Shown: in pieces, positions 73 to 25,214 of the stretch
Numbering within the stretch: the stretch's first letter is position 1
Layout: every line of letters begins with the position of its first letter
NCBI RefSeq assembly: GCF_024449095.1
Contig: NZ_CP024627.1
Coordinates: 2,294,001 to 2,358,000 of the forward strand
Length of the DNA: 64,000 nt
Direction: 5' to 3'
From: Vibrio coralliilyticus
GTDB lineage: Bacteria > Pseudomonadota > Gammaproteobacteria > Enterobacterales > Vibrionaceae
Program-made: the position numbers and the translations under genes
The notes under the pieces: model-generated
Databases searched by the model: none
Told to the model about the DNA's origin: nothing
The model's input: the letters and a program-made list of their open reading frames with translations, nothing else

Positions 73-888
73 ATGGAAAGTAGCAGCAAGATATCTATTC
101 CAGACTATCAGACTCTAAGCATAGAATCTTTAGGGAAACCTATTCACGTAATTCGAGACAGATTGGATGATTTAATATCCACCTCGTGTAACGGCCTGAC
201 TTATGAGCTGCAGAACTGGTTAAAAACACATCACGCAGATGTCAATATAAATCAAGTTTCACTGCATACTTTTACACCAAGTGAAATGGATAAGTCTTTT
301 ATCAGTACTTTTAGGCATGACGAGGGTGGGCGAGTATTTATCTATACCGATAGTCAGATACTGATTAAATTAGCTGATAGCTTTTACAACGCAAGGATGG
401 AAAGAAGCCATAGTTCACTCAATAACAGTGATTTACGACTTCAGGAAAAAATTGGCAGACTGATTATTAACTGGTTGGCGCCCGAAGAAATGTGGTCTGA
501 CTGTGAATTTGAGCCAGCACAAGGGACAGGCCTTCACGCCACCATTGAAGTCAACCTCAACAATCACCAAGGTACCATCCACCTTAAGCTAGATGAACAG
601 CTTGTCGCCACCTTAACCGAACAATTGGATTTGCAACCCAAAGAGTCCATGTACGAGCCATTCTGCCAATCTCTGGCAGCAACGCCTGTCAAACTCAATG
701 TCTTACTTAGTAAAAAAACCATGCCGCTCAGTGAAGTCATTTCACTGCAACCTAACGATATATTACCCATCGAGTTATTGTCTTCCGCTCCTGTGAGCAT
801 TGGTCAAGAACAGCTTTTTTCTGGTCGAGTTGCAGAGAATGATGGGCAACTAGTTTTAATTCTTAATCACGATAAGGACTCTTTTTAA
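73..888 (+). CDS. fliM: Lateral flagellar motor switch protein FliM (short form)
   Basis: C-ring switch protein of the lateral flagellar motor, identified mainly by its position directly before fliN and fliP and by a C-terminal SpoA-like region (about residues 190-271). At 271 residues it is shorter than polar or enteric FliM (about 330). Two hallmarks are missing by eye: the N-terminal EIDALL-type peptide that binds phospho-CheY (here the protein begins MESSSKISIPDYQTLS), and the GGxGR loop of the middle domain (here ADSFYNARMERS). It abuts the preceding stop codon and overlaps fliN by one base, so translation is probably coupled. The family call is firm from context; the inferred loss of CheY contact needs a structural alignment. 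Confidence 0.8.
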   Translation: MESSSKISIPDYQTLSIESLGKPIHVIRDRLDDLISTSCNGLTYELQNWLKTHHADVNINQVSLHTFTPSEMDKSFISTFRHDEGGRVFIYTDSQILIKLADSFYNARMERSHSSLNNSDLRLQEKIGRLIINWLAPEEMWSDCEFEPAQGTGLHATIEVNLNNHQGTIHLKLDEQLVATLTEQLDLQPKESMYEPFCQSLAATPVKLNVLLSKKTMPLSEVISLQPNDILPIELLSSAPVSIGQEQLFSGRVAENDGQLVLILNHDKDSF

Positions 889-1256
889 TGAGCGAGACAA
901 CAGAAACTGCCACATTTAATGGCGAAGAGCTGAACTTTGATGATTTTCAACTGGAAGATTCACACACCGATATTCTCGATGCCGCGGTACCAACACCAGA
1001 ACGTGATCTGAGCTTTTTCAAAAATATTCCGGTTACCGTCACTCTGGAAGTCGCCAGTAAAGATATTGCTTTGGGCGATCTAATGAAAGCTGGCGAAGGC
1101 AGTGTTATTGAGCTTGATAAACTCAATGGCGAGCCCCTCGATGTTAAAGTCAACGGATCGTTGATGGGCCATGCTGAAGTGGTGGTTGTGAACGAAAAAT
1201 ATGGCCTGAGATTGATTGATATTGTCGATTCGGCTCTGACCTCCGCAGTTGAATAA
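888..1256 (+). CDS. fliN: Lateral flagellar motor switch protein FliN
   Basis: FliN forms the lower rim of the C ring with FliM and helps dock the export ATPase complex. The 122-residue product has an acidic N-terminal stretch (residues 1-45) and a C-terminal SpoA/FliN domain (about 45-120) with the typical run IPVTVTLEVASKDIALGDLM and a G-S-VIELDKLNGEPLDV pattern. The start codon shares its first base with the fliM stop codon (TAATG), a translational coupling signature. Length and domain layout are normal for the family. Confidence 0.92.
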   Translation: MSETTETATFNGEELNFDDFQLEDSHTDILDAAVPTPERDLSFFKNIPVTVTLEVASKDIALGDLMKAGEGSVIELDKLNGEPLDVKVNGSLMGHAEVVVVNEKYGLRLIDIVDSALTSAVE

Positions 1257-1270
1257 GGGTTCACAGAAAC

Positions 1271-2029
1271 ATGACTAAGTCACCTTCCTTGCAAGGATGG
1301 GGGATCCTAATCGGCTTGGTTAGCCTGCTCTTCGCTTTCCCTTCTGTTGCGAATGAGTCAGGCTTAACCATTTTGTCTGTCAGTGACGGAGCTACTCAGC
1401 AAGAATACAGTGTAAAACTGCAGATTCTGTTATTGATGACAGCCCTGAGTTTTCTCCCAGCTTTTATTCTGATGGCCACCAGCTTTACTCGCATTATTGT
1501 GGTTCTTGCAATCCTTCGTCAGGCTTTAGGGCTCCAACAAAGCCCACCGAACCGAGTATTGGTGGGTATTGCACTCGCGCTTTCCCTACTGATCATGCGC
1601 CCTGTCTGGACAGATATTTACCAAAATGCTTTCCAGCCATACGACAAAGGGGAAATTACCTTAATGCAGGCGTTTTCAGTCGCAGAAAAGCCCGTACGAA
1701 ACTTCATGTTGGCACAAACTCAGCAAACATCCTTGGAACAAATGTTGCGCATTGCTAATGAGCCGCTCGATACCGCGTTGGAGGACATCTCGTTTGCAGT
1801 GGTACTGCCCGCTTTTGTCATCAGTGAGCTCAAAACCGCTTTTCAAATCGGCTTCATGCTGTTTATTCCGTTTCTAATCATTGACCTTGTCGTCGCCAGT
1901 GTCCTGATGGCAATGGGTATGATGATGCTATCACCGCTGATCATCTCACTTCCATTCAAACTGGTGGTGTTTGTTCTAGTCGATGGCTGGGCGATGACGG
2001 TCGGCACATTATCCGCCAGCTTTGGGTAA
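1271..2029 (+). CDS. fliP: Lateral flagellar type III export gate protein FliP
   Basis: FliP is the main subunit of the export gate at the centre of the basal body. The 252-residue product begins with a cleavable signal peptide (hydrophobic to about residue 26, SVA before NESG), as is usual for FliP. It then shows the conserved block MTALSFLPAFILMATSFTR followed by several membrane helices and a late pair of helices around residues 195-245. It lies 14 bases after fliN and 12 before fliQ in an unbroken operon. Confidence 0.95.
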   Translation: MTKSPSLQGWGILIGLVSLLFAFPSVANESGLTILSVSDGATQQEYSVKLQILLLMTALSFLPAFILMATSFTRIIVVLAILRQALGLQQSPPNRVLVGIALALSLLIMRPVWTDIYQNAFQPYDKGEITLMQAFSVAEKPVRNFMLAQTQQTSLEQMLRIANEPLDTALEDISFAVVLPAFVISELKTAFQIGFMLFIPFLIIDLVVASVLMAMGMMMLSPLIISLPFKLVVFVLVDGWAMTVGTLSASFG

Positions 2030-2041
2030 ACAGGAGTTCGC

Positions 2042-2311
2042 ATGACACCAGAAATGACCGTCACCCTGTTTTCCAATGCGGTATGGCTGATCATCACCAT
2101 GGTCGCAGTACTGGTTGTGCCAGGCCTGATTGTCGGCCTTGGCATTGCAATTTTTCAGGCCGCCACGCAAATCAATGAGCAAACACTGAGCTTTCTACCA
2201 AGGCTTCTGGTCACGTTACTTATGGTAATTTTTGCGGGGCACTGGATGCTACGTAAAATCATGGAGCTGTTCGACTACCTGTTCCACAATATTCCAGGAA
2301 TGATTGGCTGA
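2042..2311 (+). CDS. fliQ: Lateral flagellar type III export gate protein FliQ
   Basis: Small export-gate subunit of 89 residues with two membrane helices (about 12-40 and 52-75) and the family signature ATQINEQTLSFLPRLL between them. An AGGAG-type ribosome binding site precedes the ATG. Its stop codon overlaps the fliR start by one base (TGATG). Length matches the family. Confidence 0.95.
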   Translation: MTPEMTVTLFSNAVWLIITMVAVLVVPGLIVGLGIAIFQAATQINEQTLSFLPRLLVTLLMVIFAGHWMLRKIMELFDYLFHNIPGMIG

Positions 2312-3087
2312 TGGAGGTTACCTTCGCAGAAATCTCTCGCCTCCTTGGGCAGCTATGGTGGCCTTTTTTCCGCATTGGTGCGGTATTTATCTCCATGCCT
2401 TTCTTTGGTGACTCATTGATACCCGTCTGGGTGCGTAGCTTACTGGCACTGTCGATTGTGATGATCTCCGCTCCTTTGATGCCGCCAATGCCAGCGGTCG
2501 AGTTTTTCTCGATGACTTCTCTGTTTCTCGCTTTTGAACAAGCCATTTGGGGACTGTTCTTTGGCCTGATTTTGCATATGCTGTTTACCATTTTTACGAC
2601 GCTGGGCCAGATTGTCTCCATGCAGATGGGCTTAGGCATGGCAATGATGAACGACCCTGTCAACGGCATGTCCGTAGCAATTCTTGGTCGTATTTTTCTG
2701 ATTTTCTGCACCTTATTGTTTTTATCTCTCGAAGGTCATTTGGTGGTGCTTGATGTCCTTATCCAAAGCTTTGTTGTTTGGCCAGTCGGCTCCGGTCTGA
2801 CTTCAGCCTCTCTGCAAGGCATCGTTAATTTATTTAGTTGGATGTTTGCATCTGCACTGGCACTCGCCCTTCCAGCCATTGTCTCCATGTTGTTAGCAAA
2901 CATCAGCTTTGGTGTGATGAACCGAGCAGCACCGTCACTGAATGTCTATGCATTAGGCTTTCCAATGACCATGCTACTAGGGCTATTCAGCGTGCTCATT
3001 TCTGTGTCTGGTGTGCCGAGCCGATATACTGTGCTGGTCAACGACACCCTACGTTTTCTGAATCAATTCATGGCGGGGGGCGGATGA
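2311..3087 (+). CDS. fliR: Lateral flagellar type III export gate protein FliR
   Basis: Export-gate component that completes the FliP5Q4R1 complex. The 258-residue product is strongly hydrophobic with about six membrane helices and conserved FliR features such as RIGAVFISMPFFGD near the N-terminus and QMGLGMAMMNDPVNG in the middle. Its start overlaps the fliQ stop, and its end overlaps the flhB start by four bases (ATGA). Confidence 0.95.
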   Translation: MEVTFAEISRLLGQLWWPFFRIGAVFISMPFFGDSLIPVWVRSLLALSIVMISAPLMPPMPAVEFFSMTSLFLAFEQAIWGLFFGLILHMLFTIFTTLGQIVSMQMGLGMAMMNDPVNGMSVAILGRIFLIFCTLLFLSLEGHLVVLDVLIQSFVVWPVGSGLTSASLQGIVNLFSWMFASALALALPAIVSMLLANISFGVMNRAAPSLNVYALGFPMTMLLGLFSVLISVSGVPSRYTVLVNDTLRFLNQFMAGGG

Positions 3088-4211
3088 GCGAGCAATCTTC
3101 TCAGGACAAAACAGAAAAAGCCTCACCGCAGAAGCTCAAGAAAGCGCGTCAGGAAGGTCAGATACCCAGAGCGAAAGAATTCACGACCGCCGCAATTTTT
3201 CTCGCAGTCACCGTGTACTTCTCCAGTCAGCTCCCAGTGATTTGGGACAGTATTGCAGGTATTTTTCGTTTTAACATGACATTGACGAAGCAAGACTTAG
3301 CGAACCCGAAGCAAATGGTGGAGCAGCTCGGACATAGCCTCGGCATGATCATTACTCTGCTTCTACCTATGTTTATCGTGATTATTGCGGTAACGCTTAC
3401 TAGCACTATGGTACTGGGTGGCTGGATGTTTCGTTTAACGAACGCTTTTCCTAAACTGAGTAAGCTTAATCCACTCAGCGGTATCAAACGGATATTCTCA
3501 ACCCGCTCTCTGGTTGAACTCCTCAAATCGACCCTCAAAGTGCTGGTCATTTTTGGCGTGCTATATGGCTATCTTGATAATCACCTGCAACCCTTACTCG
3601 GTATGCAGAGACTGTCGCTGGAGCAAGGTGTCATTTCCGTAATGCAAATCCTGTTCGATGGTCTGCTAATGATGGGGTTTGCCTTACTGCTGTTCGGCGT
3701 TATTGACATCCCCTATCAACGTTGGGAGCACATGAAAGAGCTCAAAATGACCAAGCAGGAGCTCAAAGAAGAGTACAAAAATAATGAAGGACGGCCTGAG
3801 GTCAAGCAGCGTATTCGTCAGATTCAGCAACAATTTGCTCGGCGTAAAATCGATAAAATGGTACCGACTGCCGATGTGGTCATCACCAACCCGACCCACT
3901 ACGCCGTCGCGATGAAATATGACCCTGATTTATCAGACGCTCCATTTGTGGTCGCCAAAGGCGTGGATGAAACAGCGATGCATATTCAACGTATCGCCCG
4001 TGAAAATCAGGTTGAAATCATCAACTCGCCACCGCTGACCCGTTCTATTTACTACACCACGGCGATCGAACAGGCTGTACCAAGCCAGCTCTACATCGCG
4101 GTGGCGCATATTCTGACGTATGTCATGCAACTCAAAGCATTCCGTACCGGCAATGGCGATAAGCCGATGCCTTTGCCCCATTTTGCTATTCCAAAGCATT
4201 TGCAACACTGA
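3084..4211 (+). CDS. flhB: Lateral flagellar export switch protein FlhB
   Basis: FlhB switches export specificity from rod/hook to filament substrates by autocleavage. The 375-residue product has four membrane helices in the first 210 residues, then a cytoplasmic domain with the cleavage motif NPTH at residues 269-272 (VITNPTHYAVAM). I place the start at 3084, where MSEQSSQDKTEKASPQKLKK matches the conserved FlhB N-terminus and the ATG overlaps the fliR stop. The reading frame stays open back to 2838, but that stretch lies inside fliR and looks non-coding. Confidence 0.95.
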   Translation: MSEQSSQDKTEKASPQKLKKARQEGQIPRAKEFTTAAIFLAVTVYFSSQLPVIWDSIAGIFRFNMTLTKQDLANPKQMVEQLGHSLGMIITLLLPMFIVIIAVTLTSTMVLGGWMFRLTNAFPKLSKLNPLSGIKRIFSTRSLVELLKSTLKVLVIFGVLYGYLDNHLQPLLGMQRLSLEQGVISVMQILFDGLLMMGFALLLFGVIDIPYQRWEHMKELKMTKQELKEEYKNNEGRPEVKQRIRQIQQQFARRKIDKMVPTADVVITNPTHYAVAMKYDPDLSDAPFVVAKGVDETAMHIQRIARENQVEIINSPPLTRSIYYTTAIEQAVPSQLYIAVAHILTYVMQLKAFRTGNGDKPMPLPHFAIPKHLQH

Positions 4212-4241: not shown

Positions 4242-6332
4242 ATGCTCAATCGGTTAAAACAGATACAAGATTCTACAAAAGGCTTTGTCGGTATTCCGCT
4301 AGTCTTACTTATGGTGCTGGCAATGGTCATCCTGCCGCTGCCACCCCTGCTACTGGATGCCTTGTTCACTTTTAATATCGTACTCGCTATTTTGGTACTG
4401 TTGGTCAGTACAACCGCTAAGCGCCCCCTCGACTTTTCCATTTTCCCCACCATTTTGCTAGTGGCAACCCTATTACGCCTGACGCTCAACGTTGCCTCAA
4501 CTCGAGTCGTCCTGCTCGAAGGTCACAACGGAGGCGATGCTGCAGGTAAAGTAATTCAGGCCTTTGGTGAAGTAGTCATTGGCGGCAACTATGTGGTCGG
4601 TATGGTGATTTTCGTCATCCTGATGATCATCAACTTCGTAGTAATCACCAAAGGTGGCGAACGTATTTCAGAAGTATCAGCGCGTTTCACACTTGACGCT
4701 TTACCTGGCAAGCAAATGGCAATCGATGCGGATCTCAATGCAGGTTTGATCGATCAGGAAGCCGCCCGTCAGCGTAGGCGTGAAGTGGCTAATGAAGCCG
4801 ATTTTCACGGTTCTATGGACGGTGCGTCAAAGTTTGTTAGAGGGGATGCTATCGCCGGATTACTGATCCTGTTTATTAACATCACTGGTGGTATCAGCAT
4901 CGGTGTGTTTGAACACGGACTCACCACTTCTGAAGCGTTTAAAACTTACGCATTACTCACTATTGGTGACGGCTTAGTCGCCCAAATACCATCACTACTT
5001 TTGGCAACCGCAGCGGCCATTATCGTTACTCGTATCAACGACAGCGATAATGATATGTCAGAAACTATGCAAAAGCAGTTATTGGCTTCACCCGCGACCC
5101 TGTTTACGGTGGCTGCGGTGATGTTAATTATCGGCATGGTGCCTGGTATGCCTCACCTCGCCTTCTTTACTTTTGCCGCGGTGCTCGGATTTGCAGCTTG
5201 GCGACAGCGCAAGAACCCGGCTCATGATGCTCAAATTGAAGACGTCGAAGTACTCACTCAAGCCATGCAGCAGGAAGAAACCCCACTCAGTTGGGAAGAC
5301 ATTCCACATGTGCACACGCTGTCGCTGGCTCTTGGTTACCGACTGGTTCACCTGGTCAATAAGGAACAGGGCGCGCCACTCACCCAACGCATTCGTGGTG
5401 TAAGACGTAACCTGTCTGAGCAAGTCGGCTTCTTGCTACCAGAAGTGCGTATTCGTGACAACCTGAGCCTAAAACCCAACCAGTACACCATTTCACTCAA
5501 TGGCGAAACGATAGAGCAAGGCTTTATTGAGCCAGAGCGATTGATGGCGATTGCGGTTGGCGAAACGTATGGCGAAGTCGATGGTATCCTCGGCAGTGAT
5601 CCCGCCTACCAGTTGCCAGCGGTCTGGATTGAGCATACAGATAAAGCCAAAGCGTTAAATATGGGTTATCAGGTGGTAGATGATGCGACTGTCATCGCAA
5701 CCCATATCAGCAAAGTGATCAAAACCCACCTTTCAGAACTGTTTAATCACGACGATGTCGATGCCATGATGCAAAGGCTAACCCAACAAGCGCCGAAATT
5801 AGCGGAAGCGCTCGGCGCAGCACTCAACCCAGCACAGCAGCTGAAAGTGTATCGTCAACTGCTACTGGATCAGGTACCTCTACAAGATATCCGTACCATT
5901 GCCAACACCATGCTTGAGTCGTCTGAAAACACCAAAGATCCGATACTTCTCGCGGCTGACGTGCGTTGTGCGTTGCGCCGAACCCTCGTGAGCTTGATCG
6001 CTGGGCAGAAGGTGGAACTGAAGGTGTATGCACTCTCCGATGAACTGGAACAAATGCTGATAACCTCTCTTCAGCAGGCGCAAGCAAGTGGCAGTGTCAA
6101 TCTAGACAGTTTCCCTGTTGAGCCCAATATTCTGGCTCAATTCCAACAAAACTTACCTTTGGTAAAACAACAGCTAAAACAACAAGGCTTGGCACCGATA
6201 CTTCTGGTTATGCCGCAGCTTAGACCGCTGATTGCCCGCTATGCTCGTACGTTTTCTCAGGGATTGGCGGTATTGTCATATAACGAAATACCAGAAACAA
6301 AACAAATCAACGTGGTAGGTAACCTTGGATAA
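4242..6332 (+). CDS. flhA: Lateral flagellar export apparatus protein FlhA
   Basis: Nonameric export-gate protein that uses the proton motive force and receives export chaperones. The 696-residue product has about eight membrane helices up to residue 310, including the conserved FHIPEP region between helices (GNYVVGMVIF, KGGERISEVSARFTLDALPGKQ, shown in pieces), followed by a cytoplasmic domain of about 350 residues. Length is normal. A 30-base gap with AAGGA separates it from flhB. The next gene begins eight bases before its stop codon. Confidence 0.96.
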   Translation: MLNRLKQIQDSTKGFVGIPLVLLMVLAMVILPLPPLLLDALFTFNIVLAILVLLVSTTAKRPLDFSIFPTILLVATLLRLTLNVASTRVVLLEGHNGGDAAGKVIQAFGEVVIGGNYVVGMVIFVILMIINFVVITKGGERISEVSARFTLDALPGKQMAIDADLNAGLIDQEAARQRRREVANEADFHGSMDGASKFVRGDAIAGLLILFINITGGISIGVFEHGLTTSEAFKTYALLTIGDGLVAQIPSLLLATAAAIIVTRINDSDNDMSETMQKQLLASPATLFTVAAVMLIIGMVPGMPHLAFFTFAAVLGFAAWRQRKNPAHDAQIEDVEVLTQAMQQEETPLSWEDIPHVHTLSLALGYRLVHLVNKEQGAPLTQRIRGVRRNLSEQVGFLLPEVRIRDNLSLKPNQYTISLNGETIEQGFIEPERLMAIAVGETYGEVDGILGSDPAYQLPAVWIEHTDKAKALNMGYQVVDDATVIATHISKVIKTHLSELFNHDDVDAMMQRLTQQAPKLAEALGAALNPAQQLKVYRQLLLDQVPLQDIRTIANTMLESSENTKDPILLAADVRCALRRTLVSLIAGQKVELKVYALSDELEQMLITSLQQAQASGSVNLDSFPVEPNILAQFQQNLPLVKQQLKQQGLAPILLVMPQLRPLIARYARTFSQGLAVLSYNEIPETKQINVVGNLG

Positions 6333-7131
6333 CCTCAACTCACATCAGGCGATGTATAGCTACATCGCCAAACTCATGGAAGAACACCTTGAAACCGAAG
6401 ACGATCAACTCATCCATCAAGCGCTGATTCACAATGACATCCGACATGCATGTCAAGCGATCCGCGCAGCGGACTCTGGTGAAGTAGAATTTCAACACCT
6501 GACCCTTAGGTTTGGCGGTGATGGCGAACAAAGTGTGTATCAATTCAACCTCTCTCAACAGGTAAAATACTGTCTTGACTTGTTCAGCCTGTACCTAGCA
6601 CTACGCCAAACTCACTTTCAGCTAGAAACGTTTCATCCAGATTTGATCAGCAATGTTGTGGTACCTCTTCAAGTCGAGGCACTCATCTGGCCACCGGGTG
6701 AATATTTTTTAGAGCAAGTTATCCTCTGCCATAAGAAAGCATTCACGCATGTTATTCCTTCACTGCAACTCAGCCATTCTTTAGGGTTGGACTCGTCGGT
6801 AGAAAGCCTGATCGAGTGTGTGGAAGAATACGCTTACGCATTGTGGTTTGAAGTCACTCCGCCCTACCCTTTACTTGAACAACTGGCTTGCTATCAACCT
6901 GCGATGCTGAAACTCTCAGTGTCACTGGAAGAAAAACAAGATCGAATGGCCTTGTTGCCCATCGTACGTTTTTTGAAAAAACACAAATTGAAGTGGGTCG
7001 CCAGCCGGGTCGCAAGTCAAAAAGAATTGAACCAGTATAAATTGCTCGGCGCCAGTTACTATTTTGGCTACTTCAGTGACATCCCAACCCCGCTCTCTTT
7101 TAAAACGTTTACCAGCGAATACGACATCTAG
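6325..7131 (+). CDS. Degenerate EAL-domain protein, probable flagellar regulator
   Basis: A 268-residue soluble protein whose pattern fits the EAL (cyclic-di-GMP phosphodiesterase) fold with the catalytic residues lost. The EAL-L-RW strand becomes QHLTLRF (57-63), the KxD motif becomes KLS (196-198), the AEGVE loop becomes ASRVA (226-230), and the QGY motif near the end becomes FGY (about 247-249, within GASYYFGYF). It should therefore neither bind nor cut cyclic-di-GMP in the usual way. Enteric YdiV/RflP is a known precedent for a dead EAL protein acting on flagellar control by protein contact. The TTG start at 6325 lies in the flhA tail with GGTAGGT ahead; an ATG at 6352 is the alternative. 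Position before lafA suggests a role in lateral gene control or export; this is inference. Confidence 0.72.
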   Translation: MDNLNSHQAMYSYIAKLMEEHLETEDDQLIHQALIHNDIRHACQAIRAADSGEVEFQHLTLRFGGDGEQSVYQFNLSQQVKYCLDLFSLYLALRQTHFQLETFHPDLISNVVVPLQVEALIWPPGEYFLEQVILCHKKAFTHVIPSLQLSHSLGLDSSVESLIECVEEYAYALWFEVTPPYPLLEQLACYQPAMLKLSVSLEEKQDRMALLPIVRFLKKHKLKWVASRVASQKELNQYKLLGASYYFGYFSDIPTPLSFKTFTSEYDI

Positions 7132-7323: not shown

Positions 7324-8151
7324 ATGGCTTTATCAATGCACACTAACTACGCATCACTCGTTACACAGAACACACTAAGCAGCACAAACGATCTACTGAC
7401 AACCGCTATGGAGCGCCTAAGTACTGGTATGCGTATCAACTCTGCAGCGGATGATGCCGCAGGTCTGACTATCGCTAACAAATTAGAAGCGCAAACTCGT
7501 GGCATGTCAGTTGCGATGCGTAACTCTCAAGATGCAATCTCAATGCTGCAAACAGCAGACGGCGCACTAGAAGAGCTAACTAACATTGCTTACCGCATGA
7601 AAGACCTTGCTACTCAAGGTGCGAACGGCACAAACGGTACCACTGAGCTTTCAGCGCTAAACTCAGAATATCAAGAGCTTGAGAAAGAAGCGGTACGTAT
7701 TATGGGTGAAACCACATACGGTGCAGGTCAAAAGCTACTGACTGGTGGTAAACTTGCTGCAGCAGTAGATTTTCAAATCGGCGCATCAGGTGCAGAGAAG
7801 CTCACTGTTGACGTGTCTACTGCACTAGGCGACGTAGACTTCACTACAACAGGTGACCTTGATACTAATGCTAACTCTAACGCTCAAATCGCTGTTGTTG
7901 ATGGCTTATTTGATAAAATCAACACTGTTCGTTCATCACTAGGTGCAAACATTAACCGTCTCGAGCACACCATCAATAACCTAGCAAACGTGTCTGAAAA
8001 CACGGCGGCTGCGAAAGGCCGAATCACAGATGCTGATTTCGCGGTTGAATCTTCAAACATGACGAAGAACCAAATGCTAATGCAAGCAGGCACTACGGTT
8101 CTTGCTCAAACGAACCAAATGCCAAGCATGGCAATGTCTCTACTTCGCTAA
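7324..8151 (+). CDS. lafA: Lateral flagellin LafA
   Basis: Filament subunit of the lateral (swarming) flagella. The 275-residue product has conserved flagellin ends: N-terminal D0/D1 ([12 protein letters not shown], then the [12 protein letters not shown] signature) and C-terminal D1/D0 ending [16 protein letters not shown]. The middle D2 region is short (about residues 140-190), as in other lateral flagellins. An AAGGAG ribosome binding site lies at 7311-7316. It is monocistronic, with a strong terminator directly behind it. Confidence 0.95.
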
Positions 8152-8494: not shown

Positions 8495-9832
8495 ATGAGT
8501 TCAATCGATCCAGCTACGATGGCACAGCAACTCGCCACCTTCGACGTCCAGTCATTTAGACAGCGCTACACCAATCAGGCCTCCCAGTACCAATCTCAAC
8601 TGGATGCACTTGGCAAAGTCGAATCTGCATTGCGTGAATTCCGTACCGCTGTGAATGACATGAACAACAGCACATCAGGGATCATCAAAAATAGCGCAAC
8701 CGTGTCGAGTGAGGGGTTCTTCACTGCCAGTGCAGACTCCAAAGCACTGACAGGCAGTTACCAGATCTTTGTTGAGCAGATCGCAACAGCACATCAAGTC
8801 TCAACGGGTATGCCTGCAAACCTGGAGCCGACAACTGAAATACCGCTGACGGGCACGCTCGAATTTAAAATCAACGGCGAGACAATGACGCTGGATCTCT
8901 CCACTCTAGACAGTGATGGAGACGGCAAAGCGACTATGGCCGACTTAACTTCAGCAATCAACAATGACTCCGATAATCCGGGCGTTAACGCTACCTTAGT
9001 TCGCTCCGGTGGACAAACCCACTTTATGCTCTCCAGTGAAGAAACGGGGGTCGCTAACAAGATTGAAGTCTCAGCAACTGGAATCGGCCAAAGTTGGTTT
9101 GAAGATGCCTTCACAAACCTAAATCAGATTAGCGAAGCAAAAGACGCCATTATCTGGTTAGGTGCCAAAGATTCAGGCCTTAAACTCGAAGGCAGCAGCA
9201 ATACCTTTAGTGATGCTATCGATGGCCTCGACATCACTGTCAGCAAGGCCCAGGAAACTGGCGAATCGCCGTTAACGCTCAGTGTCAGCGGTGACAACGA
9301 CGCCACTAAAGAGCAAGTTACTCAGTTCGTTGATGCCTATAACAAGCTGATGTCGACCGTTGACGAATACACCAAGGTAGATACGGAAAACAACACTCGG
9401 GCTGTTCTAGCCAGTGACCCTACCCTACGAGCCATTGAAAGCCAGGTGAAGTCTGTTGTGCGTGGAGATTTCGGTGGCCTGCGCCTAAGTCAAGTCGGTA
9501 TTGAGATTGATCGTAACGGCAAAATGAAGATCGATTCTGAAAAGTTTGAACAGGCTCAAATCGATAATAGTGCAGGTCTTGAAGCGATGTTTAATGGCGA
9601 CGGCAATCTCTTGGATAGCATCGACACCATCATTGAGCCTTACCTGCAATTCTCCTCCGGCCTATTTAAATCTCGTAAAGACGCACTAAAGCAGAACATT
9701 GATCGCATCAGCGACAAGCAGGTCGTGCTGGACCGTAAATACGATATGGCTTACGACCGCTACCTCAAGCAATTTACTCAAATGAACACCATTATGCGCC
9801 AAATGAACCAAACCATGTCGATGTTTGGTTAA
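8495..9832 (+). CDS. fliD: Lateral flagellar filament cap protein FliD (LafB)
   Basis: FliD caps the growing filament and guides flagellin insertion. The 445-residue product has the FliD N-terminal domain (about residues 5-100, rich in Q/S heptads) and the FliD C-terminal domain (about 210-430), ending in a helical region KQVVLDRKYDMAYDRYLKQF typical of the family. AGGGAG lies nine bases before the ATG. It is the first gene of an eight-gene operon reaching lafU. Confidence 0.93.
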   Translation: MSSIDPATMAQQLATFDVQSFRQRYTNQASQYQSQLDALGKVESALREFRTAVNDMNNSTSGIIKNSATVSSEGFFTASADSKALTGSYQIFVEQIATAHQVSTGMPANLEPTTEIPLTGTLEFKINGETMTLDLSTLDSDGDGKATMADLTSAINNDSDNPGVNATLVRSGGQTHFMLSSEETGVANKIEVSATGIGQSWFEDAFTNLNQISEAKDAIIWLGAKDSGLKLEGSSNTFSDAIDGLDITVSKAQETGESPLTLSVSGDNDATKEQVTQFVDAYNKLMSTVDEYTKVDTENNTRAVLASDPTLRAIESQVKSVVRGDFGGLRLSQVGIEIDRNGKMKIDSEKFEQAQIDNSAGLEAMFNGDGNLLDSIDTIIEPYLQFSSGLFKSRKDALKQNIDRISDKQVVLDRKYDMAYDRYLKQFTQMNTIMRQMNQTMSMFG

Positions 9833-9853
9833 CGGCCACCAGGAGACGATTTT

Positions 9854-10240
9854 ATGTTAATGGATTCAGGCTACAACTCTTATCAACAGGTCGATCTTGA
9901 TGCTCAGGCAGCCTCGGCAAACCCACATCAACTGGTGGTGATGTTGATCGATGGGTTACTCAACGAAATCGAACGAGTCCGCGGTCACATGGCCGCGGGC
10001 CGCCTTGCAGAGAAAGGGGCTGGCATCAACAAATGTATGAACATTTTGGTTGGTTTAGACAGCGCACTTGATGCAGAAAACGGCGGCGAAATCGCTGAAA
10101 ACCTCCACCAACTCTACGACTTCTGTCAGGTCGAGCTTTATCAAGCAAGCGTACAAAACAACCTAGACAAACTCACGAGCGTGGAACACGTCATGAACAA
10201 TATACGAGAAGGGTGGATGAGTTTTGGTCAGCAAGCATAA
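9854..10240 (+). CDS. fliS: Lateral flagellin export chaperone FliS (LafC)
   Basis: FliS binds the C-terminus of unfolded flagellin and delivers it to FlhA. The 128-residue helical protein starts with the family pattern YNSYQQVDLDAQAASANPHQ and LVVMLIDGLLNEIERVRG. It overlaps the next gene by 17 bases. Length is normal. Confidence 0.93.
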   Translation: MLMDSGYNSYQQVDLDAQAASANPHQLVVMLIDGLLNEIERVRGHMAAGRLAEKGAGINKCMNILVGLDSALDAENGGEIAENLHQLYDFCQVELYQASVQNNLDKLTSVEHVMNNIREGWMSFGQQA

Positions 10241-10538
10241 AGTGTCCCCTGAACGGTTTCGCCATCTCGCCAAACTGATTCAGATCGCAACAAAAACCCA
10301 AGATTGGCAAGGGCTAAAACGCTACGATCTTCAATTAAGAGAGCTGCTAGAAAGCCATCAGCCCTATCTCAAAGATCCCCGACTTGCGCCTGTCATTACT
10401 GAAGTTAAATCGGTACACAAACAGGCTTTTGACGCACTGGATAAAGCCATCAACGAGCTGGAAGCCGAGATTAATGTTGTCGACGCTCAACATGAGCGAG
10501 CAAAAGCTTACCAACTTGCCATGACCATGGAGTACTAG
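10224..10538 (+). CDS. FliT-like lateral flagellar chaperone (LafD position)
   Basis: A 104-residue, all-helical charged protein placed between fliS and fliK, where FliT/LafD is found in other lateral clusters. FliT binds FliD and other late export substrates. Sequence likeness is weak by eye, as is common for this family, so the call rests on position, size and helical content. The start is a TTG at 10224 inside the end of fliS, with GGTGGATGAG ahead of it; the next in-frame start is a GTG at 10242 without a ribosome binding site. Confidence 0.6.
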   Translation: MVSKHKVSPERFRHLAKLIQIATKTQDWQGLKRYDLQLRELLESHQPYLKDPRLAPVITEVKSVHKQAFDALDKAINELEAEINVVDAQHERAKAYQLAMTMEY

Positions 10539-10540
10539 CA

Positions 10541-11539
10541 ATGAATACACCTTCACTGCACACCATGACAAGTCAAAGACCAGAGCAGTTATCCGCTGAT
10601 GGTACGATCCAAAAAGCCCGTGGATTCGGTCAGCCTGCCGAACAAAACACTGGCTTTACTCTCATGGGGCAACCAGCATCGACGCTTACTGGCAGTCAGC
10701 CAAATGCTAAACAAACTGCCGTAACCTTCACTGATGATAGCGAGGAAATGCTAGGGCAGGAAAATAGCTCAGATCATACGACTACGCTATCGATTGAAAG
10801 CCCTCATCTACTAAAAGAACACTCTGCGACCATGAATACTTTGGCATCGCTGCAACTGAAACAAAAACGAGCAGTGGACGGTTCTCAAGCGTTCAATGCC
10901 GCCCCCGTTTCAGCAACAAATTCGTCAGACAAAATGACGTCACAAACAATCAGCAGTCAATTGGTCAAGCAAGCAGGCGGGCCTTTGAGTATCGACACGC
11001 CTATCAACCAAAGCCCATCAGTACAGAGTGCTCTGCAAACGTTAGCCTCAACACAAACACAACTTCAAGTCTCTCATCAACAACCTACAACAACATCTGT
11101 ACAAACGACAGAGTGGGCAGCAGTTAAGGTCGATACGAGTGCGGCTAAGTGGGGCGAGCAAATGATCCAGGTGCTGCATGATAGAGTCTCGCTTCAAGCA
11201 CAACAAAGTATGCAAGAAGCCAAAATCCGTCTTGACCCGCCAGAGCTTGGGAAACTGGACTTGCTGGTTCGTGTTGATGGCGATCGCCTCAACGTGCAAA
11301 TCAACGCCAATGCGGCCGCAACTAGGGAAGCCTTGCTTCAGGTTTCTGACAGGCTACGTGCTGAGTTGCAAGACCAAAACTTTGTCCATGTCGACGTCAA
11401 CGTAGGCTCAGGAGAAAGCGAGCGCGACCCGTCACCTCATCAAGGTGAACATCAAACACACATATTCGACAGTCGCGAGTTTGCCAATTCAGACAATACC
11501 AATGATCCATCAGAGCATTGGCTCAGCACACACGCATAA
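10541..11539 (+). CDS. fliK: Lateral flagellar hook-length control protein FliK (LafE)
   Basis: FliK measures the hook and triggers the FlhB specificity switch. The 332-residue product has a long low-complexity N-terminal region rich in Q, S and T (about 1-200) and the conserved C-terminal Flg_hook domain (about 205-295), with the diagnostic run RLDPPELGKLDLLVRVDG. It follows the FliT-like gene by two bases. Translation ends 14 bases before the fliL start. Confidence 0.9.
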   Translation: MNTPSLHTMTSQRPEQLSADGTIQKARGFGQPAEQNTGFTLMGQPASTLTGSQPNAKQTAVTFTDDSEEMLGQENSSDHTTTLSIESPHLLKEHSATMNTLASLQLKQKRAVDGSQAFNAAPVSATNSSDKMTSQTISSQLVKQAGGPLSIDTPINQSPSVQSALQTLASTQTQLQVSHQQPTTTSVQTTEWAAVKVDTSAAKWGEQMIQVLHDRVSLQAQQSMQEAKIRLDPPELGKLDLLVRVDGDRLNVQINANAAATREALLQVSDRLRAELQDQNFVHVDVNVGSGESERDPSPHQGEHQTHIFDSREFANSDNTNDPSEHWLSTHA

Positions 11540-11553
11540 TTAGGAATAGGGTT

Positions 11554-12051
11554 ATGACAAAACAACAAATGATCGCGCTCTTTGCAGCGATGATTCTCAC
11601 CAGTGCTCTGGTTTCAGCAGCAACCGTCATCGGCGGAATTTGGCTCATAAAGCAGTCGGGAGACAGTCCCCAGTCAGAATCATTTTTCTCAGGTTCTCCT
11701 CTCGCTTTTCTCATCGAAGAACGTCAACCAGCTCAGACACCTAGCTTCCACTCACTGGATAAAATTGTTCTGAGTGTCAAAGGTAAGCGTCAGACTCACT
11801 TTGTTATGTTAGAAGTCGCGATTGAAACTCGCCGTCCAGAACGAATTCAGAATATCGATGACTACATGCCGGTTGTACGGAATTCGTTACTTAAGCTTTT
11901 CAGTGACAAAACCTACGAAGACCTTCATCAAGATGGCGCCGTTAACCTGCTGCAGAATCAGGTCAAACAAACGGTACTGCTGGCCTTTGAAAAAACCGAC
12001 ATTCTTCGCGACATCGATGATGTCTTGCTGACGAAATACGTCGTGCAATAA
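11554..12051 (+). CDS. fliL: Lateral flagellar basal-body-associated protein FliL (LafF)
   Basis: FliL is an inner-membrane protein that surrounds and supports the stator. The 165-residue product has one N-terminal membrane helix (about 6-30, IALFAAMILTSALVSAATV) and a periplasmic stomatin-like domain ending in IDDVLLTKYVVQ. I choose ATG 11554, preceded by AGGAATAGGG, over an in-frame TTG at 11518 that lies within fliK. Confidence 0.9.
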   Translation: MTKQQMIALFAAMILTSALVSAATVIGGIWLIKQSGDSPQSESFFSGSPLAFLIEERQPAQTPSFHSLDKIVLSVKGKRQTHFVMLEVAIETRRPERIQNIDDYMPVVRNSLLKLFSDKTYEDLHQDGAVNLLQNQVKQTVLLAFEKTDILRDIDDVLLTKYVVQ

Positions 12052-12063
12052 GGAGCACGGCCC

Positions 12064-12792
12064 ATGTTGGATATGAATTTTCAGGAAGAATACGGCGTAG
12101 AAGGTGAAATCAGTTCACCTTCCATCCCTATTGATGAGAACAAGTTACTCAAAAAACATCAGGTGTTGGTCAACCGTATCGTCAATCAGCTCAGAGCTCA
12201 CGCGACACCGCACTGTAGCATCGAAGATATGCAGCAAATTGGCCTTATTGGTTTACTGGAAGCGGGCCGTCGATACGGAAATGTCGAAGATCCCAACTTC
12301 CCTGCCTTTGCCGTGTGTCGCATCCGCGGAGCAATATTAGACGAGTTACGACGGCTGGATTGGCGGTCAAGAAAAACGCGTCAGCAGGCTCATGAACTTA
12401 ATGATGTAACCCGCGATTTGATGCGTTCTCTTGGCAGGCAACCAACCGATGCTGAAATCATCAAGGCATTGGGAACAGACGAACAAGATTATCTTACTCG
12501 ACAAAATGCGGCGCTGGCCGGAGAAATGCAGAGTCTTGATCAATTGATTGAGAACGGTATCGAAGCACAATCTGACGCTGTTTATGACGGAATGTCCCAT
12601 GAGCAAACTCGTCGCAGTCTCGAAGTCGCTTTAGATAAATTGCCGAAAAGAGATCAACTGCTTTTGACGCTGTTTTATCAACACGAACTTAACCTTCACG
12701 AAATCGCTTTAGTGCTTGATCTGACGCCTCCAAGGATTTGTCAGCTACACAAGCAAGCACTCAAACAACTCAACCACTACTTATCCTCCTAG
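12064..12792 (+). CDS. lafS: Lateral flagellar sigma-28 factor LafS (FliA family)
   Basis: Sigma factor for late lateral genes such as lafA and the motor genes. The 242-residue product shows sigma regions 2 (MQQIGLIGLLEAGRRYG, then FPAFAVCRIRGAILDELRRLDW), 3 (about 100-150) and 4 (KLPKRDQLLLTLFYQHELN with a helix-turn-helix to the end). Its partner anti-sigma factor is probably FlgM at 26163. It sits in the fliD operon, so it would be made under sigma-54 control. Confidence 0.94.
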   Translation: MLDMNFQEEYGVEGEISSPSIPIDENKLLKKHQVLVNRIVNQLRAHATPHCSIEDMQQIGLIGLLEAGRRYGNVEDPNFPAFAVCRIRGAILDELRRLDWRSRKTRQQAHELNDVTRDLMRSLGRQPTDAEIIKALGTDEQDYLTRQNAALAGEMQSLDQLIENGIEAQSDAVYDGMSHEQTRRSLEVALDKLPKRDQLLLTLFYQHELNLHEIALVLDLTPPRICQLHKQALKQLNHYLSS

Positions 12793-12801
12793 GAGTCACA
12801 A

Positions 12802-13659
12802 ATGCAAAAGTTTTTTGGAGCCATCACCGTCTTACTGTGTGTCTTTGGCGGATATATGTGGGCAGGCGGTAAGCTTGGCGCTATCTGGCAACCGGCTGAA
12901 TTTCTGATCATCATTGGTGCCGCTGCAGGTTCTTTGATCATAGGTAACCCACCACAAGTTCTAAAAGAAATGCGTCAGCAAGTCCGTGCTACCATTTCCG
13001 CCCCACGCGAAGAGTATGAGTACTACATGGAGCTGATGGCTCTACTTAATAACCTGCTTGAAACAGCACGTAGCCGAGGCTTTAAGTTTCTCGACTCTCA
13101 TATTGAAGCCCCTGATCAGAGTTCGATCTTTCTCGCCTACCCGAAAGTAGGTTCAGATTATCGGCTGATTTCTTTCATTACTGACAACTTGCGTTTAATG
13201 GCCATGGGTCAAATGTCGCCTCACGAGTTAGAAGGTTTACTGGAACAGGAAATCGAAGCCATTCAAACCGAAATGCTGCTGCCTTCTCGCTCAATGCAGA
13301 GAACGGCTGAAGCACTGCCGGGCTTTGGTATCCTAGCGGCTGTGGGTGGCATCATCATTACGATGCAGGCTATTGATGGCTCAATCGCCCTAGTGGGCTA
13401 CCACGTCGCTGCAGCTCTGGTTGGAACATTTGTTGGTATTTTTGGCTGTTACTGCTGCCTTGATCCGCTCAGCAATGCTATGGCGCAGCGTGTAAAGCGC
13501 AACATGACCGCATTCGAGTGTGTTAGAGCAACACTGGTGGCCTATGTGGCGAAAAAACCCACGTTACTTGCCATCGATGCCGGCCGTAAGCACATCCAGT
13601 TAGACATTAAACCGACATTCAATCAGATGGAGAAGTGGCTCTCTGAGCAGGAGGCGTAA
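12802..13659 (+). CDS. lafT: Lateral flagellar stator protein LafT (MotA family)
   Basis: MotA-type stator subunit; LafT of Vibrio works with proton motive force. The 285-residue product has two N-terminal membrane helices (about 2-20 and 33-52), a large cytoplasmic loop with the charged stretch that meets FliG (around residues 85-110), and two later helices around 170-225 including [16 protein letters not shown]. Its stop overlaps the lafU start by one base, as usual for motAB pairs. Confidence 0.94.
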
Positions 13660-14651
13660 TGCAAAGACAAGAACAGGTGGTGTTCAAACGAACCAAGACC
13701 GTCGCTGATGATGACTTCCACGGAGGCGCTTGGAAAGTCGCTTTCGCTGATTTCATGATCGCCCTAATGGCTCTATTTTTGGTCTTATGGGTGATGCAGA
13801 TTGTCGATAAGGAAGAGCGCAAGGCGATTGTGGCTCACCTTCAAAGTGCAAGCGTCTTTGACAAGAGTTACGGTAACCCGTTTGATACCTCACAAAGTAT
13901 CTCTCCTATTGACTTGGCTGCCGACTCTTCCGTACCGAGCCGGCATGATTCGACACATATTGTCAGTTCATTCTTTCAAGGCGATGGTGATGGTCCGGAA
14001 ACCGATTCTCTGATCCCGGGCACATTCGACACTCAAGAGCGACTGGCAGCATTGGCGAAGGTAATAAAAGAAGCGGTTCGCCAAATCAGCGCTCAGGGGA
14101 ATGTCAATGTCACAGTGACACCACAGGGTTTACGGATTGTTCTGCAAGACGATTATAAGCAGCATATGTTCAGTCGTGGCGGGTCAGAACTAACACCATT
14201 CTTTGAAGATCTTCTCCTTGCGTTGGCGCCTGTCTTTAAGCGGGTAGAGAACCCACTGATCATTAGCGGTCATACGGATTCTACCCGGTTCAAAGGTCAT
14301 GTTGAACGCCGTTCGAATTGGGAGTTATCAGCATCACGCGCGAATATCGCCAGACAGACTCTCGTTTCAGGTGGGATGCCCGACGAGCGAGTATTGCAAG
14401 TAACCGGTATGTCGGATCGCGCTTTACTCAATGGAGATGAGCCGGAATCCAGTGAGAACCGACGTATCGAGTTGTTTATACTGACCACACCAGCCGCCAA
14501 AGTATTGGAAACCTTCTTTGGTAATCAAGCTGACAGCGAACTGCAAAAAGCAAAACAGAAAGCAGAGTTTAATCAGCCAGTAATTCGCCAGGAAGTGATT
14601 AACTTTTCCGGCACCCAAGCTCCTTCGAAGCCAGCGCTTCAACAACTTTAA
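13659..14651 (+). CDS. lafU: Lateral flagellar stator protein LafU (MotB family)
   Basis: MotB-type stator subunit with one membrane helix and a C-terminal OmpA-like domain that anchors the stator to peptidoglycan. The ion-carrying aspartate is visible at residue 31 in [20 protein letters not shown]. The OmpA-like part spans about 180-290 with [19 protein letters not shown] and ends NRRIELF. At 330 residues the length is normal for the proton-type lateral stator. It is the last clear gene of the fliD operon. Confidence 0.94.
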
Positions 14652-15082: not shown

Positions 15083-16126
15083 TTAGCTTCTCATCAACGC
15101 CACCACAGAATGACGCTTTACGTTCGCCTGAGCATTGAGAGCCATAAAGGCTGTGGAAAACTGACCTGAATTCTCATCGAAGAGTTTAAGTTTGTCTTCG
15201 ACTTGGTGAGCAGAAATCACCGAAGACTGCTTATGAAGCGTTTGCATTTGCATCGTCAATTCAGAACCCACTGCGCTCGCCTGCTCTAACCCAACCTGTA
15301 CTTGACGGAAGAGCTGGTTCACCTTGGCGATGGTCTGTTTGATTCCGTCGCGTGAGCTCAAGTCAAAGCTTAGCTCGGCAATACCTTCTGGTTCCGCTTT
15401 AAGCGTCATCACATTAGATTGCCCAGCAGGGAAACGATGCCCCTGCCCCGTGACCATCACCTTCTGTTGCATCTGCTGATAAGCCTTCTCTGAGGATTCA
15501 AATAGTATCGTTCCATCCTCAGACAACGAGGCTCTGAGCCCAAGAGGAATCAGGCTTCGGTCTAGCATCTTGACGGTTTGCTTGCCCTCTGACAGGCCAT
15601 CAAACTCAACCATCACTGAGTTTCCTTGTGGGAAGTCGAGGCGAATTTGTTCCGCTTTATCACTCAAACGATGGATGTTTAGCCCGGGAATTGAGAAACG
15701 ACGCATATCCGCTTTGTCGAGCTTGAGCGTCAGCTCGTTGTCGATCACCTTGTTACCGTCAAAACGTGCGTTGTCTAGAATGCGCTCTATGTTTGCTTTG
15801 GCTCCTGTTAAGCCTTCTTTTAAACCGGCCACATTGCTCGCGCCAAGATTCATTGCTCGAGTAAGGCCCTGCTTAATCTTGGCCAACTCACCGCCTATGG
15901 CTTGTAAAGAGCGTGTCGCAATCTGAACTGAGGTGGCATTTTGTTGCCCCTGAGTAAGCAAAACACCAGACACCGAATACGATGCTGGTGTTTGGTTTTG
16001 GGCAGCTAGGTTACGCTGCCCGTTATCACCATGAGACTCTGAAGAACGAGGAGGAGAAATAGAAGCTCTATCGTGCCCAGTCAATCTGACATTGTGTGGG
16101 CGAACCTCAACTGTGCTCATTACCAT
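15083..16126 (-). CDS. Flagellin-family (FlgL/flagellin-like) protein after flgL
   Basis: A 347-residue protein at the end of the lateral flg operon, 17 bases after flgL. It has flagellin-like ends: an N-terminal helix region (about 50-140) including RILDNARFDGNKVIDNELTL, which parallels the flagellin NTQFNG-KLLDG motif, and a C-terminus NAQANVKRHSVVALMRS that parallels the [16 protein letters not shown] end of LafA. The first 50 residues are low-complexity. The terminal helix pattern suggests an exported filament or hook-junction protein. It is neither a standard flagellin nor FlgL, and its role is unknown. AGGA lies eight bases before the ATG at 16126. Confidence 0.65.
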   Translation of the reverse strand: MVMSTVEVRPHNVRLTGHDRASISPPRSSESHGDNGQRNLAAQNQTPASYSVSGVLLTQGQQNATSVQIATRSLQAIGGELAKIKQGLTRAMNLGASNVAGLKEGLTGAKANIERILDNARFDGNKVIDNELTLKLDKADMRRFSIPGLNIHRLSDKAEQIRLDFPQGNSVMVEFDGLSEGKQTVKMLDRSLIPLGLRASLSEDGTILFESSEKAYQQMQQKVMVTGQGHRFPAGQSNVMTLKAEPEGIAELSFDLSSRDGIKQTIAKVNQLFRQVQVGLEQASAVGSELTMQMQTLHKQSSVISAHQVEDKLKLFDENSGQFSTAFMALNAQANVKRHSVVALMRS

Positions 16127-16143
16127 ATTTCAATTCCTGCTTA

Positions 16144-17040
16144 TCAAATGCGGTCGAATAAGTTGAGATCGTTAATCTTAACGTAGCTAGCTTGAGTCGC
16201 TTGCAATGCGGCCATGTAGTTACTCAAACGAACTGAAGCTTCACCGTAATCTAGCGCGGAGAGGTCGCTGCTGACCTTATCAACAAACAATTTATTTTCA
16301 CCGTGAGCACTATCCATCAAATCTAGGTTGTTGTGACGACCACCCATTTCAGTCATCGCAGCTAACACGTTGCTGGATGTTGCTTCGATAGAGCTGAGCG
16401 TCGATTCAACCGTAGTTCGAAAAGCTGGAGTGGGTGACTGGAACTCTGCAATCAAGGCATCAAGATCGTTAAGAACGTTATTGCCACCTAGATCCAGAAT
16501 TTCCTGTGCGGTCATATTGGATTCCATCGTCACGCCTTTCGCTACTGTCACAACCCGCTTATCACTATTGCCTTGGATTACGTAGCTACCACTCGCGTTG
16601 GACAAAGCCGCCGTATCTGTTTTAGTTCCGGAGAACAAGTAACGGCCTTCTTCATCCTGAGCATTGAACGCGGAAACGACAGAAGAACGTAGACTTTCCA
16701 ATTCGCTGATGATGCCAATACGTTCACTGCTTGTTAACGTCCCGTTCGCTCCCCATAGCACACGCTCATTCATCATCTTTAGACTTTCATTCACGGAGTC
16801 GAGCTGCACTTCCTGATTGGATAATGCGGTCTTCACATTGGAAATATTAGTCTTGTACTGAGTGATCGCCGAGCCTTCACGCTCTAAATTTAGTAATTGA
16901 ACAGACGCCATTGGGTCGTCGGACAGTTTGGTCAGACGTTCACCGGTAGACATTTGCTGCATCACTTGCCCAAGCCCAGCGTTATTAATTTGCAAACTTT
17001 GCAGCATCATCTGACTGAATTGAGTATCACTAATTCTCAT
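16144..17040 (-). CDS. flgL: Lateral flagellar hook-associated protein 3, FlgL
   Basis: FlgL joins the hook to the filament. The 298-residue product has the flagellin-like N-terminus of the family (MRISDTQFSQMMLQSLQ, then LSDDPMASVQLLNLEREGS) and a C-terminal helix ending YVKINDLNLFDRI. It follows flgK by 15 bases. Length is normal for the family. Confidence 0.93.
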   Translation of the reverse strand: MRISDTQFSQMMLQSLQINNAGLGQVMQQMSTGERLTKLSDDPMASVQLLNLEREGSAITQYKTNISNVKTALSNQEVQLDSVNESLKMMNERVLWGANGTLTSSERIGIISELESLRSSVVSAFNAQDEEGRYLFSGTKTDTAALSNASGSYVIQGNSDKRVVTVAKGVTMESNMTAQEILDLGGNNVLNDLDALIAEFQSPTPAFRTTVESTLSSIEATSSNVLAAMTEMGGRHNNLDLMDSAHGENKLFVDKVSSDLSALDYGEASVRLSNYMAALQATQASYVKINDLNLFDRI

Positions 17041-17055
17041 CTGTCTTTCCTATAT

Positions 17056-18429: not shown

Positions 18430-18975
18430 TTACAGCTCCATTTTTCGAATCAATGGTTGGGCGAAAGCCGTTGTCACACCTGCTTCGCCCAACATTTGTC
18501 TAACTGAGGCGACCGACTCCTGGCTCGAATGAAGTGCAGGTGCAGAATTAGGCGCAACGGAAGTTTCAGCGTGTGAGCTTGCTTCCACCTCACTAAGAAT
18601 GTCATTCGCTGGCAAGGTTGACTCACTGGCTGAAAATGCCACTTCTGAAATTGAAGGGCTGAGCTGTTTAATCAACATTTCTGAAATACCAGAATGCTGT
18701 TTCTTAGACATTTCAATCGCCAGCTGGCCATCGTACATATCGCGAAAAACACCCTGTTGCTGGCTGGAGAATGGGCTGTCATCGTCGGCCAATACATCAC
18801 TACTACTGCGCATCTGCCGCAGTACTAACTGTAAAAACATCGCTTCAAACTGACCCGCCACTGTCTCCAGAGCGGCTCCCTGTTCGTTACTATTCTTTAT
18901 GTTCATCAGAGCACTGTTATCGTGATAAAGCACCGAGTTCATAGAAGACTGTTCGTTCAGTCCGTCAAGTTTCAT
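18430..18975 (-). CDS. flgJ: Lateral flagellar rod cap protein FlgJ, single-domain form
   Basis: Rod-assembly scaffold. The 181-residue product contains the rod-binding FlgJ_N domain (about 35-110: ALETVAGQFEAMFLQLVLRQ and GVFRDMYDGQLAIEMSKKQ) and then an unstructured S/A/E-rich tail. The C-terminal peptidoglycan hydrolase domain of polar and enteric FlgJ (total about 310 residues) is absent. A separate lytic transglycosylase at 26903 in the same cluster is the likely replacement. It lies between flgI and flgK as expected. Confidence 0.9.
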   Translation of the reverse strand: MKLDGLNEQSSMNSVLYHDNSALMNIKNSNEQGAALETVAGQFEAMFLQLVLRQMRSSSDVLADDDSPFSSQQQGVFRDMYDGQLAIEMSKKQHSGISEMLIKQLSPSISEVAFSASESTLPANDILSEVEASSHAETSVAPNSAPALHSSQESVASVRQMLGEAGVTTAFAQPLIRKMEL

Positions 18976-18984
18976 AAAGACTCC

Positions 18985-20858: not shown

Positions 20859-20883
20859 TCCCTGTTCCTTTATTACTTGACCG

Positions 20884-21669: not shown

Positions 21670-21690
21670 TTTCTACTCCTTGCGCCACGC

Positions 21691-22422: not shown

Positions 22423-22433
22423 ATCAGGCTCCG

Positions 22434-23630: not shown

Positions 23631-23656
23631 AACTAAACCTCTTTATTCCTTATTGG

Positions 23657-24771: not shown

Positions 24772-24773
24772 GA

Positions 24774-25136: not shown

Positions 25137-25177
25137 GTCTCTTTCCTTTAAAGTCGACTCGAATAAGGATGAATAAG

Positions 25178-25192
25178 ACAAGATGCATGCCA
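25178..25192 (-). promoter_or_regulatory. Candidate sigma-54 promoter of the flgB operon
   Basis: On the - strand TGGCATGCATCTTGT fits TGGCACG-N4-TTGCA, with GG and GT in the correct spacing; the second element has GT in place of GC. It ends about 41 bases before the flgB start. Like the site before fliD, it would place the hook-basal-body genes in the intermediate class controlled by sigma-54 and LafK. Confidence 0.55.
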
Positions 25193-25214
25193 CAAAAATA
25201 ACAAAACAAAATCA

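Follow-up and report, generated by a model that had tools for sequence, protein, structure and literature searches.

The lafV gene of Vibrio coralliilyticus encodes a degenerate EAL protein and starts within the end of the lateral flhA

LafV of Vibrio parahaemolyticus was reportedly named and studied by Kimbrough and McCarter in 2021 (J Bacteriol 203:e00409-20). It is a degenerate EAL protein whose gene is the last of its operon and lies next to lafA. Passages of later papers give lafV as VPA1547 (PMC9303241) and lafA as VPA1548, i.e., the adjacent number (PMC9817140), state that LafV represses in the presence of LafK and that its effect is on transcription (PMC9303241), and ascribe to it a negative influence on swarming (PMC8215210). 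The anti-FlhDC factor of Escherichia coli, RflP (YdiV), is likewise a degenerate EAL protein of the stand-alone kind; it lowers the expression of flagellar genes, and its target is FlhD4C2 (extracts of PMC7515728), whereas the candidate partner of LafV, LafK, is a sigma-54 activator. The 'LafV' of enterobacterial Flag-2 systems, a FliB-type lysine N-methylase that methylates flagellin, shares only its name with these proteins, going by a section of PMC6993521. Here, we describe a gene from the lateral flagellar cluster of Vibrio coralliilyticus, located in a stretch of 64,000 nucleotides (hereafter the window; contig NZ_CP024627.1, positions 2,294,001 to 2,358,000). A catalytically dead EAL protein regulating lateral flagella had been predicted there from the sequence, which matches the cited passages on LafV of V. 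parahaemolyticus.

The open reading frame of this original prediction, said to start inside flhA just ahead of lafA, is present. It encodes 268 amino acids from a TTG codon and its 5' end overlaps the flhA stop by 8 base pairs (bp). Its product is similar over its full length to P0020, a named V. parahaemolyticus protein (63% identity over 99%) that is presumably VPA1547, judging from the species and the kind of gene, and it lies after the lateral flhA and beside lafA. On the strength of sequence and position, the gene is lafV and the finding is already known; the analysis settles this identity, and the view that no role had been described for the protein was mistaken, as LafV had been named and studied in 2021. 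No difference of substance was found between the two proteins, both being degenerate EAL proteins encoded next to lafA by the last gene of an operon. The gene of the window is carried by the largest contig (3.30 megabases), whereas that of V. parahaemolyticus is on chromosome 2, which we take to be what the VPA numbers denote. What is new here is how the start signal of lafV is built within the end of flhA, along with some added evidence on its coupling to flhA, on its distribution and on the conserved pocket.

The four EAL motifs had been described as degenerate and in order. Their placement was confirmed by profile-profile alignment (hhalign) against 18 EAL domains that the genome encodes (probability 91, expect value (E) 1.2e-7, 257 columns), in which H58-L59-T60 replaces EAL, K196-L197-S198 replaces KxD, A226-S227-R228-V229-A230 replaces AEGVE and F247-G248-Y249 replaces QGY. 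The degeneration is less complete than had been claimed, since LafV still has K196 (the KxD Lys), Q44 (the QPI Gln) and R62 (the ExLxR Arg). Out of ten canonical EAL residues, LafV retains these three, whereas the domains of its own genome carry all ten in 17 of 18 cases and seven in the remaining one (L094, G000:C1:375830-376640). The catalytic and metal-binding set is incomplete (E replaced by H58, N by P114, E by S146, the second D by E176 and E by S227), and the first Asp of the DD motif has no aligned residue. In a set of 62 sequences (LafV of the window and 61 similar proteins, among which P0001 is possibly the window's own protein), the Glu of EAL, the Asn, the Glu of ExTE and the Glu of AEGVE are replaced throughout, and Q44, H58, R62, P114, K196 and F247 are invariant. 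Hydrolysis of cyclic diguanosine monophosphate (cyclic-di-GMP) by LafV is most likely impossible.

A working cyclic-di-GMP phosphodiesterase is nevertheless what several database names imply. The LafV orthologs P0002, P0003 and P0011, among others, are recorded as 'diguanylate phosphodiesterase', a name that is contradicted by their residues and is probably misleading. A passage of PMC12405303 also counts LafV as one of the phosphodiesterases by which biofilm is inhibited and/or motility promoted. K196 is kept, and an acidic residue occupies position 176, opposite the second DD Asp, in all 62 sequences, so that one possible metal ligand remains. Because the metal site is missing, the published listing is disfavoured and phosphodiesterase activity was rejected; with four catalytic residues replaced in every sequence and the first Asp unmatched, it is highly improbable.

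Structure prediction and structural comparison give LafV the fold of an EAL TIM barrel, as the original prediction would have it. The Pfam EAL profile (PF00563) matches LafV with E 0.0026 and 17.6 bits, under its 31.3-bit cut-off, and many members of the family carry a precomputed PF00563 tag. The resemblance nevertheless goes beyond chance, given the 61 similar proteins and the predicted fold. The structural matches with the highest Z scores include LapD (3pfm, 21.7; 6pwk, 21.4). LapD and FimX, EAL effectors that have lost catalysis and were crystallised with cyclic-di-GMP, have the EAL fold in common with LafV and reach high structural scores; LafV, unlike them, is a single EAL domain, and its ligand binding is putative, with 3/10 canonical residues. 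The nine mapped active-site columns of the family alignment have a mean entropy of 0.26 bits versus 1.41 bits for the whole protein (permutation p 0.0001 over residues 25-259). The kinship of the sequences makes this p value too favourable, and folding alone may explain why motif positions are conserved. To judge from these alignments, the former active site is not decaying.

This conservation, the retention in all 62 sequences of Q44, R62 and K196 (equivalents of residues on the substrate side) and the presence of LapD among the top matches would fit a metal-free sensor, in whose rebuilt pocket these three residues would bind an anionic ligand (cyclic-di-GMP, pGpG or another), a binding that would gate the action of LafV on LafK in the manner of LapD and FimX. 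Such a sensor is conceivable but doubtful: LafV has lost the DFGTG loop along with the AEGVE Glu and the QGY Gln, its pocket could be occupied by H58, P114 and F247, LapD does not stand above active enzymes in Z score, and the conservation may serve folding alone, with kinship inflating its significance. A more specific version, in which a pocket comprising the invariant Q44, R47, H58, R62 and K196 would receive a phosphate-bearing signal and serve as input to a LafK that lacks both the phospho-aspartate and the FlrA-type cyclic-di-GMP motif, so setting surface swarming, is unlikely.

The start of lafV was compared across 47 loci found by scanning genome contigs with two conserved motifs, a sample biased to typical members. 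In 46 of them, a lateral-type flhA lies directly upstream of lafV and a lafA-like flagellin gene downstream (within about 2 kilobases (kb)); the exception, L047 from Grimontia indica, carries LafV residues 1-99 only and has no flhA match. The TTG start and the exact 8-bp overlap with the flhA stop are found in 42 of the 46 flhA-bearing loci, which come from related species and are not 42 independent events. In the other four, from Photobacterium (L035-L038), lafV and flhA do not overlap, the lafV match starting about 40 bp past flhA. Among the last codons of flhA in the 42 loci, which encode V-G-N-L-G, GTA is used in 41, GGA in 30, AAC in 40 and CTT in 42, versus 14%, 9%, 60% and 12%, respectively, in the bodies of the same genes; the window itself reads GTA GGT AAC CTT GGA TAA. 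The TTG start exists because CTT precedes GG, and the ribosome-binding-like stretch because of GTAGGA. At the flhA ends of loci that lack lafV, CTT is found in 0/8 and GTA in 1/8 (L054), the ninth such locus (L055) being omitted as its flhA end is frame-shifted. This codon conservation supports the TTG start of lafV and suggests that its translation is coupled to that of flhA. The surroundings of lafV contain one promoter-like and one terminator-like site, numbers close to those of shuffled sequences (1.4 and 1.0), and gave no match to an Rfam family.

Two of the lafV-less loci deserve mention. In L054 (genome G169), flhA ends with GTA GGA AAC followed by CTC in place of CTT, about 420 bp ahead of lafA, as if lafV had been lost recently. 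In L055 (genome G315), the match to the lateral flhA is split between two frames close to the 3' end.

The conserved overlap and the position between flhA and lafA could also mean that LafV acts at export or assembly, i.e., that it is made with FlhA and contacts the export apparatus, transcription being affected indirectly through the secretion of a regulator. This is rather improbable, as the lateral flhA is kept without lafV in nine genomes, lafV does not overlap flhA in the four Photobacterium loci, the 6 kb fetched from genome G030 contain lafV but no flhA match, and the effect stated in a passage of PMC9303241 is on transcription with LafK present.

Taken as a whole, the action of LafV can be pictured as follows. 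LafV would serve the regulon of lateral flagella and surface sensing as a non-enzymatic brake built into it. Made from its TTG start in coupling with flhA translation, it would bind LafK, whose gene lies close upstream on the opposite strand, and lower its activity, presumably by direct contact. LafK stands out as the likely target because the effect reported for LafV requires it. For this reading, orthology by sequence and position, fold, metal-site loss, coupling signal and distribution were computed, and repression with LafK present is published for the ortholog. That lafV encodes an EAL-fold protein most likely devoid of cyclic-di-GMP hydrolysis, is coupled to flhA and brakes the system most likely by binding LafK appears, in sum, fairly probable. 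The YdiV-like protein binding that had been proposed by analogy would not be established by the published statement, which concerns transcription. A passage of a review presents the fliM operon as not LafK-dependent (PMC3930126), so that lafV can be made without LafK; a feedback loop in which lafV would be made only under active LafK was set back by the same statement. In the 14.1 kb upstream stretch, sigma-54 sites with at most three mismatches are uninformative (73 matches versus 72.7 expected).

LafK was searched at E 1e-120 in 80 genomes, i.e., the 78 with a close lateral FlhA (a near full-length match of at least 652/696 residues with at least 79% identity) plus G030 and G036, with G024, G078 and G296 left out. 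It was found in 78 of them (all but G208 and G030), namely in the nine that lack lafV and in 69 of the 71 that carry it. G208 has LafV and the lateral FlhA with no LafK match at this threshold, which may reflect an assembly gap or a loss. LafK of the window's genome and 20 others from the 78 genomes, all nine lafV-less ones included, were aligned with the FlrC-like and FlaK/FlrA-like activators of the window's genome, LafK, FlrC and FlaK of which were named by position and domains. At the phospho-Asp position of FlrC, the 21 LafK proteins have Ser (19), Gly (1) or Asp (1, the distant L122), and the arginine of the LFRS motif in the FlaK-like protein stands opposite a gap in 21/21. The LFRS-type arginine binds cyclic-di-GMP in FleQ and FlrA. 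Should LafK have lost the usual inputs, the swarming activator may receive surface signals through LafV, provided that the latter is an EAL shell in which the pocket is conserved.

Besides the acidic position 176 and the published listing as a phosphodiesterase, three observations weigh against LafV being a non-enzymatic brake on LafK. LafK does not need lafV, as nine lateral clusters without lafV keep LafK. No signal of LafV-LafK coevolution was found among 20 genomes, receiver-domain identities to the window's LafK overlapping between the nine that lack lafV (53-81%) and eleven that carry it (20-84%). Finally, an rpoN deletion lowers fliMN expression according to a passage of PMC9817140, at odds with a LafK-independent operon. 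That nine genomes have LafK but no lafV is consistent with a negative regulator that can be dispensed with, and such natural absences provide pairs of species to compare.

LafV was matched at E 0.001 in 95 of 329 Vibrionaceae genomes, i.e., by our count 74 with LafV proper (of which two, G024 and G200, look broken) and 21 with weak partial matches that presumably belong to other EAL proteins. The original prediction had asked for a survey beside the lateral flhA: lafV is present in 69 of the 78 genomes with a close lateral FlhA and missing from nine (G079, G082, G122, G169, G170, G214, G237, G315 and G326). Five genomes have LafV without a close FlhA match: G024 (broken), G030, G036 (FlhA at 69%), and G078 and G296 (partial FlhA matches). 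The LafV relative of G030 (L066), a genome that is 87% complete and in which LafK was not found, has neither a flhA nor a lafA match in the 6 kb fetched. Genomes with FlhA at 60-70% identity mostly lack LafV, which is found in 1/10 (G036) at 67-70%. The next gene matched past flhA, at 0.2-0.5 kb, is lafA-like in eight of the nine lafV-less genomes; other genes follow in G079. No clear remnant of lafV was detected in the flhA-lafA gaps of the eight lafV-less loci other than L055 (best hmmsearch E 0.093). No full-length LafV was found outside Vibrionaceae in 394 genomes of the same order, which gave partial EAL matches only (best E 3.3e-8), and every organism-named protein among 85 found by profile is from Vibrionaceae. 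The weak Pfam score, the nine absences and the two broken-looking copies could suggest a decaying, functionless EAL copy. This is next to impossible given a reading frame open over its full length in 46/47 loci, 26 invariant columns in the 62-sequence alignment and a conserved start signal.

Kinship between LafV and RflP beyond the EAL fold was not retained, as no match was obtained with the single RflP sequence available, which makes a weak test (hhalign probability 0.1 over 1 column; BLASTP E 2.8). The canonical residues kept also differ, being E and Q in RflP versus Q (of QPI), R and K in LafV. The 50 structural matches shown do not name RflP, from which nothing can be concluded. EAL-HDOD proteins were considered as closer relatives on account of weak C-terminal matches in the genome searches, often in frames of about 400-420 amino acids. 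This tie was dropped because two proteins of the same genome, which like these frames we take to be EAL-HDOD proteins, scored below ordinary EAL domains (hhalign probability 46 over 104 columns).

The features of the window are listed below.

Coordinates of lafV and neighbouring features in the window
Feature	Coordinates	Strand	Description	Basis
lafV	6325..7131	+	degenerate EAL protein, 268 amino acids, TTG start	open reading frame, similar proteins, fold prediction, profile alignment
lafV ribosome-binding-like stretch (GGTAGGT) and TTG start	6314..6332	+	within the last flhA codons (GTA GGT AAC CTT GGA TAA)	sequence, synonymous-codon conservation in relatives
lateral flhA	4242..6332	+	export gate; shares 8 bp with lafV	open reading frame, locus and genome comparisons
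lafA	7324..8151	+	lateral flagellin, next gene downstream of lafV	open reading frame, locus comparison
fliM, fliN, fliP, fliQ, fliR, flhB	73..4211	+	upstream of flhA; probably one operon with flhA-lafV	open reading frames, locus comparison (fliQ aside)
fliD, fliS, lafE, lafF, lafS, lafT, lafU	8495..14651	+	rest of the lateral cluster	open reading frames, locus comparison

The gene order is fliM, fliN, fliP, fliQ, fliR, flhB, flhA, lafV, lafA, fliD, fliS, lafE, lafF, lafS, lafT, lafU, in which the six genes from fliM to flhB would form one operon with flhA-lafV. With fliQ left out of the comparison, the other five were matched in the same order in 45/47 loci (exceptions L008 and L047). Genes taken by position and domains to be motY (L048:12751-13659) and lafK (L048:11417-12748) lie on the opposite strand just beyond the window.

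The axial genes flgI, flgH, flgE, flgK and flgA, together with a flgL-like gene encoding a flagellin-N protein (Pfam), are found beside lafSTU at 15083-26012, so that both lateral clusters seem to be merged in the window. In V. parahaemolyticus, flgB2 (VPA0264) and lafA (VPA1548) are far apart (passage of PMC9817140). A 347-amino-acid open reading frame that adjoins the flgL-like gene (15083-16126, minus strand) has no Pfam match at E 0.001. A second MotY-like protein is encoded at 35500-36381 (minus strand); it matches MotY_N with E 5e-51, versus E 3e-15 for the MotY next to lafK.
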